A DNA stretch of 64,000 bases, from positions 3,906,001 to 3,970,000 of the forward strand of contig NZ_CP051204.2 in assembly GCF_012516375.2 (NCBI RefSeq). Reading direction: 5' to 3'. The stretch comes from Chitinophaga oryzae. GTDB taxonomy: Bacteria; Bacteroidota; Bacteroidia; Chitinophagales; Chitinophagaceae. This document shows positions 824 through 39,509 of the stretch, piece after piece; position 1 is the stretch's first letter; each line of letters opens with the position of its first letter. A program made the translations under genes and the position numbers. The notes beneath the pieces are model-generated. The model was not told where the DNA came from and did not search any database. It worked only from the letters and a program-made list of their open reading frames with translations.

Positions 824-2920
824 ATGGACAAACATCAGCACATGCATATGCACATGGACCACGATCATCACGATCGGGAGCCGGAGGCCGACGCAAACGC
901 CGGTCACGTGCATGACCATACGGACCATTCCCAACATTCCCCTCAGCCTGGCCATGCCGCGCATGCCGGCCATGGAGGTCACGCCGGACATGACCACCAG
1001 GCCATGATCCGCGATTTCCGGCAACGGTTTTACGTAGTGCTGATACTCACCATACCGGTCATGCTGTTGTCGAAAATGATCCAGCACTGGCTGGGGCTGG
1101 ACATTAGTTTCCCGGGCGATAACTACCTCCTGTGTGCGCTGTCTGCCGTCATTTTCTTCTATGGCGGCTGGCCTTTCCTTTCCGGCTGGTGGTCTGAAAT
1201 GCGGACGCGCAATCCCGGCATGATGACGCTGATCGGCTTCGCCATCAGCGTAGCTTTTGTATATAGCGTGGCCACGCTGTTCGGACTGCAGGGCATGGAC
1301 TTTTTCTGGGAACTGGCAACGCTGATCCTGATTATGCTGCTGGGACACTGGATTGAAATGAAGTCGGTGGCGGGCGCTTCGCGTGAACTGGAACTGCTGG
1401 TACAACTCATGCCGGCGGAAGCTCACCTGGTGGAAGGCGGCAATATCCGCGAAGTAAAAACCGACAGCCTGCAGCCCGGCAACATGGTGCTGATAAAACC
1501 CGGGGAAAAAGTAGCGGCAGACGGCGTTGTAACGGAAGGCAGCAGCTATCTCAATGAATCCATGCTGACGGGAGAGTCCAAACCGGTGAAAAAAAGCAAA
1601 GGCGACAGGGTGATCGCCGGATCTATCAATGGCAATCAGGCGCTGCATATCAAGGTGTCCCACAACGCGGCCTCTTCCTACCTGTCACAGGTGATCAGGC
1701 TGGTCAACGATGCGCAGCAGGCCAAATCGAATACGCAACTGCTGGCCGACAAGGCTGCCCGCTGGCTGACGATCATCGCCATTGTGGCAGGTATCGCCAC
1801 TTTCGCCTACTGGCGCATCGACGGCCAGTCCATCTCTTTCGCCATGGAACGGATGGTAACGGTCATCGTTATCTGCTGCCCGCACGCCTTGGGCCTCGCG
1901 GTACCGCTGGTGGTAGCCCGCTCCACCACCGTGGCCGCCAAAAACGGCCTGCTGATCAAAAACAGGACCGCCTTCGAAAACGCCCGTAAAATCACCACGC
2001 TGGTATTCGATAAAACCGGTACGCTTACGGTAGGCAAGTTCCAGGTGGTGCAGCTGGAAACGCTGGACAACCGCTACAGTCAACAGGAAATACTGATGCT
2101 GGCAGCCGCCGTGGAACAACAGTCGGAGCATCCCATCGCCACCGGCATTGTGGACAAGGCCCGTAACGAAGGAGTACAGATACCTGCCGCCAGCGATATG
2201 CAGGCCATGACCGGCAAAGGTATCAGCGCTACTGTCAACGGGAAAAAAGTACAGGTGGTAAGTCCCGCTTATATGAAAGAACAGTTCCCGCAACAGGCGG
2301 CAATAGGGCAAACAGATACCGGCACCCTGTCTTTTGTGATCGTGGATGGTCTGCCGGCAGGCTATATCGTATTGGCGGATGAAATCAGGCCGGAATCACT
2401 GCCTGCTATCCAGGCGTTGAAAAAAGAACACATCGCCAGCGTACTGCTCACCGGCGATAACAAAAAAGTGGCGGCCGCTGTGGCGCAACAACTGCAGCTA
2501 GATAACTATATCGCGGAAGTGCTGCCGCACCAGAAACTGGAAGAAATCAAAAGATTGCAGGAAGCAGGCCAGTACGTAGCGATGACTGGCGACGGCATCA
2601 ACGACGCGCCGGCATTAGCCCAGGCGGATATCGGCATCGCCATCGGCTCCGGTTCTGACATCGCTGCAGAAACAGCGGGCATCGTGCTGGTCAACAGCAA
2701 CCCGCAGGACATCGTCAGCCTGGTACGTTTCGGCAAGGCCACCTACCGGAAAATGATCCAGAACCTGGCCTGGGCCACCGGTTACAACGTCATCACCATG
2801 CCGCTGGCAGCAGGCGTGCTGTATCACTGGGGCGTACTGTTAAGTCCCGCCGCCGGTGCGGTACTGATGACAGTGAGCACCGTCATAGTAGCTATCAACG
2901 CCAGATTGCTGAAATTATAA
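824..2920 (+). CDS. Copper-translocating P1B-type ATPase, CopB-like (CPH motif), His-rich N terminus
   Basis: This is a heavy-metal P-type ATPase of 698 residues that should export copper (or silver) across the inner membrane using ATP. Residues 1-58 hold 18 histidines and no CxxC heavy-metal-associated domain. The transmembrane metal-site motif is Cys-Pro-His (352-354) rather than Cys-Pro-Cys, which by known subfamily rules places it in the P1B-3/CopB group. The actuator TGES loop (around 249-252), the phosphorylation motif DKTGTLT (D396), the SEHP motif of the nucleotide-binding domain and GDGINDAP (about 589) are all present, so the enzyme looks intact. It appears to be monocistronic, with an inverted repeat in its upstream region. 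No copper chaperone or regulator lies beside it. Confidence 0.92.
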   Translation: MDKHQHMHMHMDHDHHDREPEADANAGHVHDHTDHSQHSPQPGHAAHAGHGGHAGHDHQAMIRDFRQRFYVVLILTIPVMLLSKMIQHWLGLDISFPGDNYLLCALSAVIFFYGGWPFLSGWWSEMRTRNPGMMTLIGFAISVAFVYSVATLFGLQGMDFFWELATLILIMLLGHWIEMKSVAGASRELELLVQLMPAEAHLVEGGNIREVKTDSLQPGNMVLIKPGEKVAADGVVTEGSSYLNESMLTGESKPVKKSKGDRVIAGSINGNQALHIKVSHNAASSYLSQVIRLVNDAQQAKSNTQLLADKAARWLTIIAIVAGIATFAYWRIDGQSISFAMERMVTVIVICCPHALGLAVPLVVARSTTVAAKNGLLIKNRTAFENARKITTLVFDKTGTLTVGKFQVVQLETLDNRYSQQEILMLAAAVEQQSEHPIATGIVDKARNEGVQIPAASDMQAMTGKGISATVNGKKVQVVSPAYMKEQFPQQAAIGQTDTGTLSFVIVDGLPAGYIVLADEIRPESLPAIQALKKEHIASVLLTGDNKKVAAAVAQQLQLDNYIAEVLPHQKLEEIKRLQEAGQYVAMTGDGINDAPALAQADIGIAIGSGSDIAAETAGIVLVNSNPQDIVSLVRFGKATYRKMIQNLAWATGYNVITMPLAAGVLYHWGVLLSPAAGAVLMTVSTVIVAINARLLKL

Positions 2921-2955
2921 CTTTTCATTATTAGCATTTCCAGTAAATATTTCTA

Positions 2956-2963
2956 TACATTTG
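2956..2963 (+). promoter_or_regulatory. Bacteroidota-type -7 box for the SPFH gene
   Basis: TACATTTG fits the TAnnTTTG -7 element used by the primary sigma factor of Bacteroidota and lies 29 bases before the ATG at 2992. I see no clear -33 TTTG at the right distance. Confidence 0.45.
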
Positions 2964-2991
2964 GTGCAGATGTTTCTTAAAACCTGTTACT

Positions 2992-4110
2992 ATGGGAATA
3001 TTTGATAAACTCCGGAATGAATTTATTGACATTATTGAGTGGACAGACCCGTCCGCCGACACCATTGTGTGGAAGTTTCCCCGCTACCAGAATGAAATAA
3101 AAATGAACGCCAAGCTGACGGTAAGAGAATCGCAGGTGGCAGTTTTTATGAACGAAGGTAAGATAGCGGATGTTTTTCAGCCCGGCATGTATACGCTGAC
3201 AACGCAGAACATGCCTATTCTGACTACGTTACAGGGATGGAAATATGGTTTTAACAGCCCCTTTAAGGCAGATGTGTTTTTCATCAGCATGCGGCAGTTC
3301 ACCAACCAGAAATGGGGCACCAAAAACCCTGTCATGCTGCGCGATGCCGAATTCGGCCCGCTGCGGCTGCGCGCTTTCGGCAGCTACGCTTTCCGCGTGA
3401 AAGACGCTGCGCAGTTCCTGAAAGAAATCGCCGCTACCAATCCTGAATATACGGTTGACGGTATCAACGAACAACTGCGCAACCTGGCCGTTTCCCGCGG
3501 TATGGATGCCATTGCCGAAGCAAAAATCCCGGTGCTCGACCTGGCTGCCAGGTACGATGAGGTATCCCAGCTGATCACCGAAAAAATACGGCCTGAGTTT
3601 AATGAGCTGGGCCTCGACCTGACGAAATTCCTGATTGAAAATATTTCCCTGCCGCCCGAGGTGGAAGAAGCGCTGGACAAACGCAGCAGCATGGGTATCG
3701 TAGGCAACCTCGGCGCCTATGCACAGTTCCAGGCCGCCAATGCCATGGAAAAAGCTGCAGAAAACCCCTCCGGCGGGGGACTGGCTGCTGCCGGTCTCGG
3801 CGCCGGTATGGGGGCTGCCATGATGGGCCAGGTAGGTAACGTATTCCAGAATAACCAGGCTAATCAACAGCCTGCCGCCGGTGGCCCGGGTGTTCCGCCG
3901 CCGCTGCCGGGCACAGAGCCTTTCTTCGTGGCTGTGGAAGGTAAACAGTCCGGCCCTTACAACATGGACCAGCTGCGTCAGCTGGCCGCTTCCGGTAGTC
4001 TCCAGCACCAGACCCTGGTCTGGAAAACAGGCATGGCCGCCTGGACCGCCGCTTCCGCAGTGCCTGAACTGGCGCCCGTACTGGCCACTGTACCGCCACC
4101 ATTACCGTAA
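2992..4110 (+). CDS. SPFH domain protein with C-terminal GYF_2 domain
   Basis: The protein has 372 residues. The first ~250 form an SPFH (band-7-like) domain of the YdjI/'virion core' type. A glycine/alanine-rich linker (about 258-285) and a proline-rich stretch follow, and the last ~65 residues form a GYF_2 domain (PFFVAVEGKQSGPYNMDQL) that typically binds proline-rich ligands. There is no signal peptide or membrane segment, so it is probably a cytoplasmic, membrane-associated scaffold. The next gene encodes a double zinc-ribbon protein with a C-terminal membrane anchor. In Bacillus subtilis the YdjG (zinc ribbon) and YdjI (SPFH) proteins work together in a membrane-stress complex, so the two genes here may act together. 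That role is inference. Confidence 0.8.
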   Translation: MGIFDKLRNEFIDIIEWTDPSADTIVWKFPRYQNEIKMNAKLTVRESQVAVFMNEGKIADVFQPGMYTLTTQNMPILTTLQGWKYGFNSPFKADVFFISMRQFTNQKWGTKNPVMLRDAEFGPLRLRAFGSYAFRVKDAAQFLKEIAATNPEYTVDGINEQLRNLAVSRGMDAIAEAKIPVLDLAARYDEVSQLITEKIRPEFNELGLDLTKFLIENISLPPEVEEALDKRSSMGIVGNLGAYAQFQAANAMEKAAENPSGGGLAAAGLGAGMGAAMMGQVGNVFQNNQANQQPAAGGPGVPPPLPGTEPFFVAVEGKQSGPYNMDQLRQLAASGSLQHQTLVWKTGMAAWTAASAVPELAPVLATVPPPLP

Positions 4111-34483: not shown

Positions 34484-34714
34484 GCTTTGATCTTTTGTTT
34501 CCGCCAGTGCGAAGATAAATTTTAATCACTTCGCATTCAGTATTTCCGGAATTTTTTGTCTTTAACATTTCTTTCACTAATGGTAAGCGCATTGTCGAAT
34601 GTATTGTTAGTATACAGCCGGTTAATGAATTGGTGCAGTATCGCAAAAATCATGCACAACCAGCCGGTTGCACAGTTGTCATCATTATTTTAACCATACA
34701 AAAAATTGAATGCC

Positions 34715-35383
34715 ATGAAAAAAACAATCACAGGAATGCTCGCTTTAGCCGCTATGGTAGTAGGGATGTCTTCGTTTAAAAGTGCTGATGCAACGACTGT
34801 AAGGTCTTTGGATAGCGCTTCAGTTAAAATGGACTCGCTGATGTCTGTTGACTCAGTGGCACGTTTTGATTCTCTCTCCACCGGGATAGATTCGCTGATG
34901 GGTCTGGATTCCATCGCTGGTATCGACTCCATCGCTGGTATCGACTCCATCGCTGGCATTGACTCTATCTCCGGCATCGATTCCATCGCCGGTATTGATT
35001 CTGTTGCCCGCATCGATTCTTTCACCCGCGTAGATTCCTTCTCCCGTGTTGATTCTGTGTCCAGGATGGACTCTCTTTTCCGTAACGATTCCCTGCGTAT
35101 GGACTCCGTAAAAGGTATGGATTCTCTCCGTACTGTTGAAGGCGGTTCCATCAGCGGTAAAGTTACACCTGCCGACGGCGCTGCTGAAGTAGAAGCGGAC
35201 AACGGTACTGAAAAACTGAAAGGTGCCGTTGCACAGGGCGCTTTCGCTATTCCGGCTGCCAAAGCTGGTACTTATACCATCACCATCGTAGGTAAAGCGC
35301 CTTATAAAAGCGCCGTTATCAAGGATGTTAAAGTAGAGGATGGTAAAGCTACCGATCTTGGCGAAATCAAGCTGGAACAATAA
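34715..35383 (+). CDS. Secreted protein with 18 Asp-Ser hexapeptide repeats and a C-terminal beta-sandwich
   Basis: I do not recognise the repeat domain. The start is the ATG at 34715, where a signal peptide (MKKTITGMLALAAMVVGMSS) begins; an in-frame TTG nine bases earlier is less likely. Residues 33-140 are built from 18 units that begin Asp-Ser, mostly six residues long with the pattern D-S-hydrophobic-x-x-hydrophobic (for example DSIAGI five times with one variant). Two units are seven residues and two are five. The last ~80 residues look like a carboxypeptidase-regulatory-like beta-sandwich. The regular D-S-[ILVF] period could fold as a narrow solenoid, and the acidic ladder could bind calcium. 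Both points are inference. It is divergent from the sigma factor and ends at a terminator. Confidence 0.75.
   Translation: MKKTITGMLALAAMVVGMSSFKSADATTVRSLDSASVKMDSLMSVDSVARFDSLSTGIDSLMGLDSIAGIDSIAGIDSIAGIDSISGIDSIAGIDSVARIDSFTRVDSFSRVDSVSRMDSLFRNDSLRMDSVKGMDSLRTVEGGSISGKVTPADGAAEVEADNGTEKLKGAVAQGAFAIPAAKAGTYTITIVGKAPYKSAVIKDVKVEDGKATDLGEIKLEQ
34907..34996 (+). repeat. Tandem 18-bp repeats encoding DSIAGI
   Basis: Five near-identical 18-bp units encode DSIAGI, DSIAGI, DSIAGI, DSISGI and DSIAGI. Third-codon differences show they are not all recent copies. Confidence 0.85.
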
Positions 35384-35686: not shown

Positions 35687-35753
35687 CTTCCAAAGCCCTG
35701 GTTTTGACGGAATGGGAAAAAGACACATAAACGTTATCTAAAAAGGTTACATC

Positions 35754-35779
35754 ATAGCTGTCATATATAATAGCTGTCA
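35754..35779. promoter_or_regulatory. Direct repeat ATAGCTGTCA x2, candidate antitoxin operator
   Basis: Two identical 10-bp copies (35754-35763 and 35770-35779) are 16 bases apart and lie about 45 bases before the toxin start. Antitoxins of the XRE type usually bind such repeats in front of their own operon. Confidence 0.4.
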
Positions 35780-35824
35780 CATCAATCAACCATTATCTGA
35801 CATCGTTAAACCCAACTGATCTAA

Positions 35825-36307
35825 GTGAATTACGAAATCATCGAGATGCAGCAATTCTCCGGGAAGCGCGCTGGTATTTATTCTGTTATGATTGCGGACG
35901 ACAATCTGACGTTGTTTGAACATTTTGTGAAGGCGCATGTAAGGGACCATGCCATGGAAATAAGGAGCATTACCCAGTATCTTTCTTATATTGGAAACAG
36001 GTACGGGATGCAGAACAGGTTCTTTAAAGTGGACCGGGGTATGCCCCGGGACGGGGTTTGTGTGTTGTTTGATCACCCGGAGAAAAAGCTCCGGCTGTAT
36101 TGTTACCGGGTGGGCACTGCGGCCCTGATCGTAGGCGGCGGCATGCCCAGGCCAGGCAGAAGAGGCGGGGAGGGAGTGCCGGAAAAAATGCTGGCCCGTA
36201 TATCACAGGATATCCGCCGTAAAATCCGCACGGGAGATATCTACTGGTCGGCGCAGGAAGCCCGGCTACAGGGAAACCTGGTGTTCAGGGCAGAGGAGAA
36301 AGGATAG
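35825..36307 (+). CDS. Putative HigB/RelE-like toxin of a toxin-antitoxin-chaperone module
   Basis: The 160-residue protein starts at a GTG; the segment right after it (IIEMQQFSGKRAGIYSVMI) looks like the family's N terminus, so I keep that start over the ATG at 35846. The middle and end carry a pattern seen in RelE/HigB-fold toxins: KKLRLYCYRVGTAALIVGGG, preceded by GVCVLFDHPEKK. The C terminus is rich in Arg and Lys, as expected for an RNase acting on ribosome-bound mRNA. The next gene is an XRE antitoxin and the one after that a SecB-like chaperone. The toxin-first order is that of HigBA. Activity is inferred; the overall sequence is not a close match to classic HigB. Confidence 0.65.
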   Translation: MNYEIIEMQQFSGKRAGIYSVMIADDNLTLFEHFVKAHVRDHAMEIRSITQYLSYIGNRYGMQNRFFKVDRGMPRDGVCVLFDHPEKKLRLYCYRVGTAALIVGGGMPRPGRRGGEGVPEKMLARISQDIRRKIRTGDIYWSAQEARLQGNLVFRAEEKG

Positions 36308-36319
36308 GCGCCGTGGTAA

Positions 36320-36416
36320 GCAGCCGCTACCCGCGGGAAACTTCATCATCGTTGCGGACAGCGGAAAACGACAGGAGCAAAAGCAGGCAGCCGCTGTCCG
36401 GCTACATCTTCATCAT
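36320..36416. repeat. Duplicated block and inverted repeat between toxin and antitoxin genes
   Basis: GCAGCCGCT followed by CTTCATCAT occurs twice (36320-36349 and 36388-36416). Between the copies lies a perfect 10-bp inverted repeat, CGGACAGCGG (36355-36364) and CCGCTGTCCG (36391-36400). A separate promoter, operator or RNA structure for the antitoxin is possible. Confidence 0.45.
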
Positions 36417-36419
36417 TTG

Positions 36420-36457
36420 GAACAGATGGAAAATAATTAGAACAAATGGAAAACAAT
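36420..36457 (+). repeat. 20-bp tandem duplication of the antitoxin start region
   Basis: GAACARATGGAAAAYAAT occurs at 36420-36437 and again at 36440-36457. The second copy holds the antitoxin start codon (36446). The first encodes MENN followed at once by a TAG stop, a four-codon mini reading frame in a different phase. Confidence 0.7.
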
Positions 36458-36838
36458 CATCAGGGCGCCAGGAAATACAGCAGTAAAATTATTGCCGATG
36501 TGATGGCCAGCATCACACCGCTGGAAAGTCTGCAGGTGGAAACCCGCTTTGTGCTGGCGGGCCGTATAGCCGGTATCATGGACAGCCGGCATATGTCCAA
36601 TAAGGAGCTGGCCGCCCGGATGGGCAAAAACCCGTCTGAGATCTCGCGCTGGCTGAGCGGCACCCATAATTTTACCATCGATACACTGTCTGAAATAGCC
36701 ATAGCGCTGGAAGTACCGGTGGCTACTTTCTTTTCGCCGGCACAACCCCGCGTTGTCAGGGATGTGCGGCTGACCGTCCGCTCCGGGAATATCCCGGCAG
36801 ACAGTATTTCATTTTCACCGGTGACAAACATTCGCTGA
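36446..36838 (+). CDS. XRE-family antitoxin (HigA-like) of the TAC module
   Basis: The 130-residue protein has an N-terminal arm, an HTH_3 domain (about 37-92, with LAARMGKNPSEISRWLSGTHNFTIDTLSEIAIALEV as its core) and a ~35-residue C-terminal tail. In known TAC antitoxins, a C-terminal tail called ChAD makes the protein depend on the SecB chaperone. The tail here is rich in Val, Arg and Ser and could play that part. The gene is 138 bases after the toxin and 104 before the chaperone, wider spacing than is usual for HigBA. Confidence 0.8.
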   Translation: MENNHQGARKYSSKIIADVMASITPLESLQVETRFVLAGRIAGIMDSRHMSNKELAARMGKNPSEISRWLSGTHNFTIDTLSEIAIALEVPVATFFSPAQPRVVRDVRLTVRSGNIPADSISFSPVTNIR

Positions 36839-36942
36839 TAAGGCCGATCGTTGCTGATGTTTGCTGCCATGCAGTACCATTTTAACGGAACCACCTGAAA
36901 CGGAAGAATGGCATTATCCGAATTTATTGCCAATTTACGCTC

Positions 36943-37398
36943 ATGACTAAACGATCTTCACCGGCAAAAACAGGACCGCAGCACCTGGTCCTGCTATCGA
37001 TAGACCTGCTGGACAGCTCCCTGCATTATCCGGGAGACCACCCGCCGTTCGAAAGCTTTCATTTCGATGTGCACATCACCAGTAAGGCAGACGATGAAAA
37101 AAGCCAGGTACTGGTAACAGTGACCATCGGTGTGCACCATGAAAATATTGCCAGTCCGCTGGGCAGCATCACCATCAACTGCACTTTTACCATGAGTAAC
37201 TTTGCGGAGGTGGTCAGGCTCAATGCGGCCGGTCAGCCGGACATGCCGGATGATCTCGTAGAAACACTTCATAGTACAGCACTCTCCACCGCGAGAGGCG
37301 TCATGTTCGCCACTTTCAGAGGTACTTTCCTGCATCATGCGGTGTTACCACTGATCACACCGGGCTCCCTTACAGAAGAAAAAAAAATTAACAGCTAG
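36943..37398 (+). CDS. SecB-like chaperone of the TAC module
   Basis: The 151-residue protein fits the SecB fold. A set of alternating beta strands (about 40-95, with FHFDVHITSK, QVLVTVTIGV and GSITINCTF) leads to a helix with the stretch STARGVMFATFRGTFLHHAVLPLITP, which matches the SecB pattern of a long helix ending in a Leu-Pro motif. It lies directly after an XRE antitoxin, as in the Mycobacterium tuberculosis HigBA-SecB system, so it probably chaperones the antitoxin rather than general secretion. Sequence similarity to housekeeping SecB is low, and the call rests on pattern and context. The next gene starts after three bases. Confidence 0.7.
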   Translation: MTKRSSPAKTGPQHLVLLSIDLLDSSLHYPGDHPPFESFHFDVHITSKADDEKSQVLVTVTIGVHHENIASPLGSITINCTFTMSNFAEVVRLNAAGQPDMPDDLVETLHSTALSTARGVMFATFRGTFLHHAVLPLITPGSLTEEKKINS

Positions 37399-38454: not shown

Positions 38455-39509
38455 ATGGAACAGGAAAGAATTTGGTTATTGCTGGGAAGAAAGGTATCGG
38501 GCGAAGCCTCTATGGCTGAATTGCGCGAGCTGGAGGAGCTGTTGGTGCAATATCCGGAGTTACGGTACCAGGTGTCGGTGCTCAGCAACATGCCTGTACC
38601 GGAAACAACACCGGCATGGGCAGAAAAAACGGAACTGGCGCTGGAAAAACACCTGCTCCGGCTCGGTAACGACCTGGCCGCGGCGGAACAGCCGGCAGAG
38701 AGCAACGTACGTCACCGTAAAGGCAGGGCAGGAATACTGGTAGCCTTGTCGTCACTGGTGGTATTGTTGGGCGGGTATTGTCTTTTTCTGCTCAACAGCA
38801 AGACAACGCCTAAAGCGCCGGCGGAAATGGCGGAGATTCAGACCCGGAACGGTTCCCGGTCCCGCGCTACCCTGCCGGACGGCACGGAAGTATGGCTCAA
38901 CGGCGGCAGCCGCATCACCTATCAGCGCGATATGAACACGCAGCAGAAAAGGGAAGTGTACCTCTCGGGGAAGCTTACTTCAACGTCGCTAAAGATGCTG
39001 AAAACCCGTTCGTGGTAAAAACCGACCGCATGGCGGTCAACGTGCTGGGCACCGCTTTTAATGTCAAAGCGTATCCCAATGAGGAACAGACGGAAACATC
39101 CCTGATCTCCGGATCGGTGGAAGTAGTGCCGGCCAACGACCAGGAACGCCGCATACAGCTACAACCCAATCAGAAATTTATTATCAGACATACACAGGAT
39201 GGCAATGCTCAACCCACACTGGGTTACAGCGTGGAACAGGTGAAAATGAACGGGCAGAACGACCTGATCAACGAAACCGCCTGGTGTGACAACGTCCTGG
39301 TCTTTGACAACGAAAGCTTCGCGTCCGTGGCACTGAAAATGGAACGCTGGTTCGGAGTGAAAGTTTATCTGGCGGATAAAAAACTGAAGGCATACCGGTT
39401 TACCGGTACCTTTAAAAATGAATCGTTGCCTCAGATTCTGGAGGCGCTGAAGGTTACATCATCTTTCCGTTGCGAGATAAAAGGCAACGAGGTATTTATC
39501 AACCAGTAG
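38455..39509 (+). pseudogene. FecR family anti-sigma factor interrupted by a one-base frameshift
   Basis: Two overlapping frames (from 38455 and to 39509) together give one normal FecR of about 351 residues. The first frame holds the sigma-binding part, one membrane segment (GILVALSSLVVLLGGYCLFLL) and the start of the FecR domain up to REVYLSG. The second frame continues without a gap as GEAYFNVAKDAENPFVVKT and on to the C-terminal DUF4974 domain. The switch is at the GGGG run 38967-38970, where one more G would restore the frame. The intact paralogue at 32869-33870 reads continuously through the same region (GEAFFDVVKND). It could be a real mutation, a phase-variable G run or a sequencing error. 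There is no canonical -1 slippery heptamer. Confidence 0.85.

Follow-up and report, generated by a model that had tools for sequence, protein, structure and literature searches.

A probable toxin-antitoxin-chaperone module with a SecB-fold protein in Chitinophaga oryzae

The toxin-antitoxin-chaperone (TAC) system of Mycobacterium tuberculosis (HigB1-HigA1-SecBTA, Rv1955-Rv1956-Rv1957) comprises a toxin, a tailed antitoxin and a chaperone encoded in that order, and its antitoxin is fully active and chaperone-independent in the laboratory when the tail is missing (PMC5105189). The Escherichia coli anti-phage system CmdTAC (PD-T4-9) is also tripartite with a SecB-like chaperone, and its toxin, CmdT, is an mRNA ADP-ribosyltransferase (PMC11618068). 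SecB has been recorded in seven non-proteobacterial groups, and 33 SecB-like chaperones associated with toxin-antitoxin (TA) systems have been reported outside the Pfam SecB family PF02556 (PMC4257090). Here, we analyzed a 64,000-nucleotide stretch of Chitinophaga oryzae (NZ_CP051204.2; the window, whose positions serve as coordinates below) and describe a three-gene module that is very probably a TAC, with a putative HigB-fold RNase toxin, an XRE antitoxin and repressor, a tail that would make the antitoxin chaperone-dependent, and a SecB-fold protein as its predicted guard. This reading rests on conserved gene order, predicted folds, selection, the association of tail and chaperone, one joint absence of the two, and a Pfam SecB in the same slot in Balneolaceae.

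All three proteins match the models of PDC-M64 (E 6.2e-28, 1.5e-21 and 1.1e-14), a candidate listing in PADLOC with no mechanism attached; PDCs are putative, mostly unvalidated candidates from a guilt-by-embedding approach (PMC12988326). No paper naming PDC-M64 and no description of this Bacteroidota module were found in the literature searched, although it may have been mentioned elsewhere. One study counted nine Bacteroidetes SecBs (PMC4361572) and another covered defence-system homologues in Bacteroidetes in general (PMC9519451); neither was found to describe a module of this type. In a phylum where Pfam SecB is rare, a large branch of TA loci has a SecB-fold protein together with a HigB-fold toxin, neither of them named by Pfam. 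The TAC reading would supply a mechanism for an entry that the defence catalogues leave without a name. Two findings are new: tail and chaperone are both absent from one member of a pair of sister genomes, and the type of chaperone changes inside a single TA family. Such natural pairs offer a direct handle on the gain and loss of chaperone addiction and on what the chaperone senses.

Gene order and predicted folds

The original prediction proposed three consecutive genes, and the corresponding open reading frames (ORFs) all lie on the + strand, separated by gaps of 138 and 104 bp. The likely toxin (35825-36307, GTG start, 160 aa) has a predicted HigB/RelE fold and matches PDC-M64B. The likely antitoxin (36446-36838, ATG start, 130 aa) contains the anticipated helix-turn-helix (HTH) domain of XRE/Cro-C1 type at residues 45-93 (PF01381, HTH_3, 41.5 bits, cut-off 23; PDC-M64C PDLC04760, 1.5e-21), followed by a C-terminal tail (residues 97-130, 36734-36838). 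The likely chaperone (36943-37398, ATG start, 151 aa) has a predicted SecB fold and matches PDC-M64C PDLC04763. Toxin and chaperone reach no Pfam cut-off and are given no family by NCBIfam or PHROGs, and among the 25 toxins and 26 SecB-like proteins that were aligned, only scattered weak Pfam matches appear (E 0.02 or worse).

The nearest named relatives are all Chitinophaga species, and C. eiseniae shares 92-93% identity with the toxin and 95% with the SecB-like protein. Against C. eiseniae, C. fulva and C. varians, the toxin, compared over 159 codons and with its frame intact in all three species, has ratios of nonsynonymous to synonymous substitution rates (dN/dS) of 0.109, 0.087 and 0.098; the antitoxin has 0.067, 0.100 and 0.108, and the SecB-like gene has 0.074, 0.069 and 0.056. 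Because these ratios are low, the ORFs behave as genuine, maintained genes, and all three are under purifying selection. The tail alone evolves more loosely, yet is still constrained (0.20-0.23). As a separate observation, the antitoxin start region seems duplicated at 36427-36460, where ATGGAAAATAATTAG is followed by ATGGAAAACAATCAT, the latter being the start used here; the homologue P0015 carries an N-terminal extension built of QMENK-like repeats.

The order toxin, antitoxin, chaperone, adjacent on one strand, is that of Rv1955-Rv1957, as had been claimed. We examined 30 SecB-like loci, the window among them, which are the best from 39 places across 294 family genomes: 27 show the same ordered triad, one (L027) is cut by the contig start, and two (L014 and L015) hold solitary SecB-like genes. 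This arrangement is beyond chance. The SecB-like model matches 37 of the 294 genomes and the toxin model 38, and neither matches in 14 control genomes. Starting from the toxin instead, a scan of genome contigs with the toxin alignment confirmed 88 loci, of which 80 are named and lie in many Bacteroidota and Balneolaceae, and a search of the genus located 38 toxin places spread over 28 of 60 genomes, from which 20 loci were taken. A SecB-type gene stands behind the toxin-antitoxin genes in 23 of 30 family loci (of 41 places), 59 of 76 contig loci and 18 of 20 genus loci; these sets overlap, and four of the 80 contig loci were dropped (two antitoxins cut by contig ends, one contig ending in the toxin, one broken toxin). 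The original prediction had named toxin homologues widespread without an XRE partner as evidence against it, and they were not found in these toxin-centred loci. In IMG/VR, no SecB-like relative was confirmed, and none of five viral toxin loci has a SecB.

Although the module shares gene order and a tailed antitoxin with the M. tuberculosis TAC, it lies in Bacteroidota, and its toxin is longer than the roughly 120 residues of the solved HigB1 chain. Profile searches of toxin and SecB-like protein against PDB chains gave nothing meaningful, as did a phmmer search of a Balneolaceae SecB against solved structures. The predicted toxin structure, however, matches the HigB1 chains 7awk and 7nbu, in agreement with the proposed RelE-type fold. 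Within the LRLYCYR...GGG motif noted earlier, all 62 aligned toxins share R90, Y92 and G106. R90 (codon 36092-36094, +) and R109 (codon 36149-36151, +; K in 44 of the 62, R in 6, gap in 12) are candidate counterparts, by strand position and spacing, of R77 and K95 in HigB-TAC and R61 and R81 in RelE, which are basic catalytic residues (PMC9098466); R90 and R109 are 19 residues apart, compared with 18-20 in the known toxins. Like HigBA and other type II pairs of the RelE superfamily, the module has a toxin-first order, an XRE antitoxin and a predicted HigB fold, but a chaperone and a tail are added in most loci sampled here.

The structure prediction named beforehand as a test of the third gene returned a SecB fold, a four-stranded sheet followed by a long helix, which superposes on SecB and matches 5mtw (single chain). 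The SecB-like proteins also share with SecB an invariant Arg within the long helix and a Pro after it. In contrast to SecB proper, the family is located in TA operons and is unmatched by the Pfam model: PF02556 (cut-off 26 bits) gave no match at E up to 1 in the window protein and 25 relatives (26 of 26), and no PF02556 gene was found in the 8.36-Mb window genome. We therefore call the protein SecB-fold and do not file it in PF02556. An hhalign comparison of the family with Balneolaceae PF02556 proteins gave a nearly full-length but weak match (probability 51, E 1.5e-4; control 0.1). In one source, two SecB-like homologues bear the names preprotein translocase (P0001, truncated name) and preprotein translocase subunit SecB (P0004). 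A TAC chaperone outside PF02556 is not new as a kind, given the 33 sequences already reported; compared by description, those are also SecB-like, TA-associated and missed by Pfam.

A tail that accompanies the chaperone

The antitoxin tail was suspected to be a chaperone-addiction (ChAD) tail, and we now consider this likely, as it tracks the SecB gene, carries an alternating hydrophobic motif and is missing together with the chaperone in one genome. Taking the tail as the residues beyond the HTH profile end in 119 non-redundant loci including the window, its length is 24-104 aa beside a SecB-like gene (median 50, n=90), 27-48 aa beside a Pfam SecB (n=3), and 2-54 aa where neither is present (median 11, n=26). 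Tails of at least 24 aa occur in 93 of 93 loci with a SecB-type gene versus 9 of the 26 without (length difference p 4.7e-12, kinship ignored), and a search of those 26 loci with three SecB profiles found nothing at E 1. Among 110 loci (85 with SecB, 25 without), an alternating hydrophobic run is present in 66 of 85 SecB-adjacent tails, compared with a mean of 45.6 in shuffled tails (sd 4.4, max 59), and in 2 of 25 SecB-less ones. Since the ChAD peptide is bound extended at strands 1-3 of Rv1957 (PMC6377645), a short alternating run fits an extended peptide on the sheet.

The loci L026 and L050, from two genomes of another genus (code g51), differ in exactly these parts. They align at 84.8% identity over L026 1-1321 and at 87.9% over 1913-3094, and the intervening 591 bases are absent from L050. 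The gap begins just past the antitoxin HTH domain and stops 23 bases short of the end of the SecB-like gene (L026 1489-1935), so that the tail and nearly the whole chaperone gene are missing together, as expected if the tail makes the antitoxin chaperone-dependent. Because TGGAGAAAAT is present in L026 at both edges of the block (1311 and 1907), the alignment suggests that the L050 line lost the block by deletion between short repeats, in which case L026 would show the older state. The toxin and HTH are still open in L050, with L026-L050 dN/dS of 0.077 and 0.035, values that may partly reflect divergence predating the loss.

In Balneolaceae, the gene behind the same toxin and XRE antitoxin encodes a Pfam SecB (L086 and L094; 38.2 and 37.4 bits), and the SecB of L086, from Balneola, matches the CmdC models of PD-T4-9/CmdTAC (E 2.2e-11). 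Among 395 genomes of the phylum, we found 10 PF02556 loci, three of them in the same cassette (L148, L150 and L155); L148 and L150 are the same genes as L086 and L094, and L155 has the same family code (27.9 bits). In L156, a PF02556 SecB stands behind an XRE gene and a different, weakly toxin-like ORF (E 2e-5). The window module itself falls outside CmdTAC, since the PD-T4-9 models match none of its three proteins at E up to 10 and its toxin has a predicted HigB fold, unlike CmdT.

Mechanism and alternative readings

If the module is a TAC, the toxin would cleave mRNA at the A site of the ribosome, and the XRE protein would bind and silence it while repressing the operon. The tail would keep the antitoxin prone to aggregation and proteolysis unless held by the SecB-fold protein. 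Once the chaperone is occupied or removed, most likely by a phage structural protein as in CmdTAC, the antitoxin would be lost and the toxin freed.

Several observations weigh against this picture. Foldseek gave no match for the toxin at E 0.001 (best 0.014), which makes the fold evidence moderate, and the hhalign probability for the chaperone was only 51, as given above. The 24-aa threshold was chosen post hoc, with the data already seen, and nine SecB-less antitoxins carry tails of 27-54 aa, six of which seem by eye to belong to a single Cytophagales type. A quick tree of 112 toxin rows implies 11 or more changes in SecB presence, yet no more than five independent pairs fall on branches with support, so the pooled p overstates the case; the tail follows SecB in 3.6 of the five pairs on average and never the opposite (p 0.125, not significant), and the hydrophobic motif does so in 4.6 (p 0.0625). 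A longer hydrophobic run, found in 26 of 85 tails, is inside the shuffle range (mean 15.7, max 27), and the tails here show no enrichment of aromatic residues (9.4% vs 8.0%), which are key in their M. tuberculosis counterpart.

An alternative reading is a plain HigBA-type pair whose SecB-fold neighbour serves export or general folding and shares the operon by coincidence. In its favor, 26 of the 119 non-redundant loci have toxin and antitoxin without SecB, and the solitary SecB-like genes of L014 (1477-1929) and L015 (1486-1938), from one genus, have no recognised toxin or antitoxin. Yet 27 of 30 SecB-like loci are ordered triads, the tail tracks the chaperone and both are missing as one block in L050, and a true SecB occupies the same slot in Balneolaceae; we therefore regard an incidental chaperone as very improbable. 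A decayed or re-purposed window toxin, whose RNase activity was lost or whose target changed while the module persisted, is less remote but still unlikely. The window clade has lost a conserved toxin loop, with Q at alignment column 129 missing in exactly six Chitinophaga sequences of 62 (the window and P0008-P0012), and the sequences of this clade have R at position 71, where 56 of 62 have E, and at 109, where 44 have K. Because of these changes, this copy may be weaker or of different specificity, and its clade may be atypical for the family. However, dN/dS of 0.09-0.11 over 159 codons with frames intact in three species argues against decay, R90 and a basic residue at 109 are retained, and RelE itself has R81 there (PMC9098466).

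The most serious alternative accepts the TAC and disputes its trigger: the module could serve a general stress response or its own maintenance at its locus, to which we give somewhat less than an even chance. The M. tuberculosis TAC is described as stress-responsive (PMC4257090), purifying selection on the module would be in keeping with such a role, and a scan of the two immediate neighbours matched no defence family, which also counts against defence. On the other hand, all three genes match PDC-M64, the Balneola version has a CmdC-like chaperone, and the three tested TACs protect against phages: CmdTAC (PMC11618068), HigBAC (reviewed in PMC11980606) and MqsRAC (PMC9519451). A phage trigger protein is named for two of the three, CmdTAC and HigBAC, and none was seen for MqsRAC. 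Because of the PDC-M64 match, the CmdC-like swap and these three precedents, we lean slightly towards a phage as the trigger, by analogy. More tentatively, and with a good deal of doubt, the tail and SecB-type chaperone could form an exchangeable cartridge of phage alarms across Bacteroidota, which is gained, swapped (for a CmdC-like chaperone in Balneola), replaced (in L110 by an AAA ATPase) or removed by a single deletion, leaving an ordinary two-gene TA system. If so, the chaperone slot would be an evolvable sensor of invaders.

Leader, genomic site and related cassettes

A 37-bp leader directly before the toxin start (35788-35824, +) is identical in C. eiseniae and matches at 36 of 37 positions in C. 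fulva and C. varians. Since it is near-identical while synonymous sites of the toxin diverge (pS 0.26-0.58), it looks like a regulatory or start region, possibly an operator, and it would suit autoregulation by the XRE protein. We also considered a 16-bp direct repeat (35748-35779) as operator, but it is shared only with C. eiseniae and absent from the ten other leaders compared, a set that probably includes members of the same species. It was therefore rejected, with the 37-bp leader preferred as operator candidate.

Within the genus, the module site lies between a repeat-protein gene and a DMT_6 gene. We read 30 DMT_6 loci, the best from the 59 of 60 genomes with a match: ten, including the window, have a SecB-like gene directly upstream, and the other 20 do not, with L168 retaining an HTH-like piece. 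The two flanks are separated by 57 bp in L170 and 62 bp in L175, compared with 1.9 kb in the window. Because the carriers are mostly closest relatives (DMT_6 identity 92-100% vs 84-93%), few gains or losses are needed.

Upstream of the module, 34706-35383 encodes a 225-aa protein with a long SIAGIDSIAGIDS-type repeat run and a weak CarboxypepD_reg-like end that falls short of the Pfam cut-off. At 38455-39509, a FecR-type anti-sigma gene, located between an ECF sigma factor gene upstream and a TonB-dependent receptor gene downstream, is split over overlapping ORFs, 38455-39018 (N-terminal) and 38892-39509 (the rest and FecR_C); either a mutation or a sequencing error has broken its frame within or close to the overlap.

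Two-gene versions without SecB, with an ORF that overlaps the antitoxin end by about 25 bases (DUF2442 in L096), occur in five IMG/VR contigs (L142-L146) and in Parabacteroides distasonis (L096). The toxin and HTH models of PDC-M64 also match SecB-less pairs such as L096. In Spirosoma, a cas1 gene (L130:4071-5135) begins 37 bases after a SecB-less pair of the same toxin-antitoxin family. In L110, an AAA ATPase gene (PF00004, 3980-5089) takes the chaperone slot after an antitoxin with a 54-aa tail and is a possible non-SecB partner. Finally, L147 (485-1788) and L154 (1459-2706, - strand), from two genomes of the phylum, carry another TAC-like cassette, in which a HEPN gene (PF05168, cut-off 22; 29.9 and 34.1 bits) is followed by a small ORF that has no Pfam family and then by a PF02556 SecB. 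A HEPN toxin guarded by SecB would deserve separate study; one of the two genomes with this cassette (G008) also has a window-type TAC (L021).
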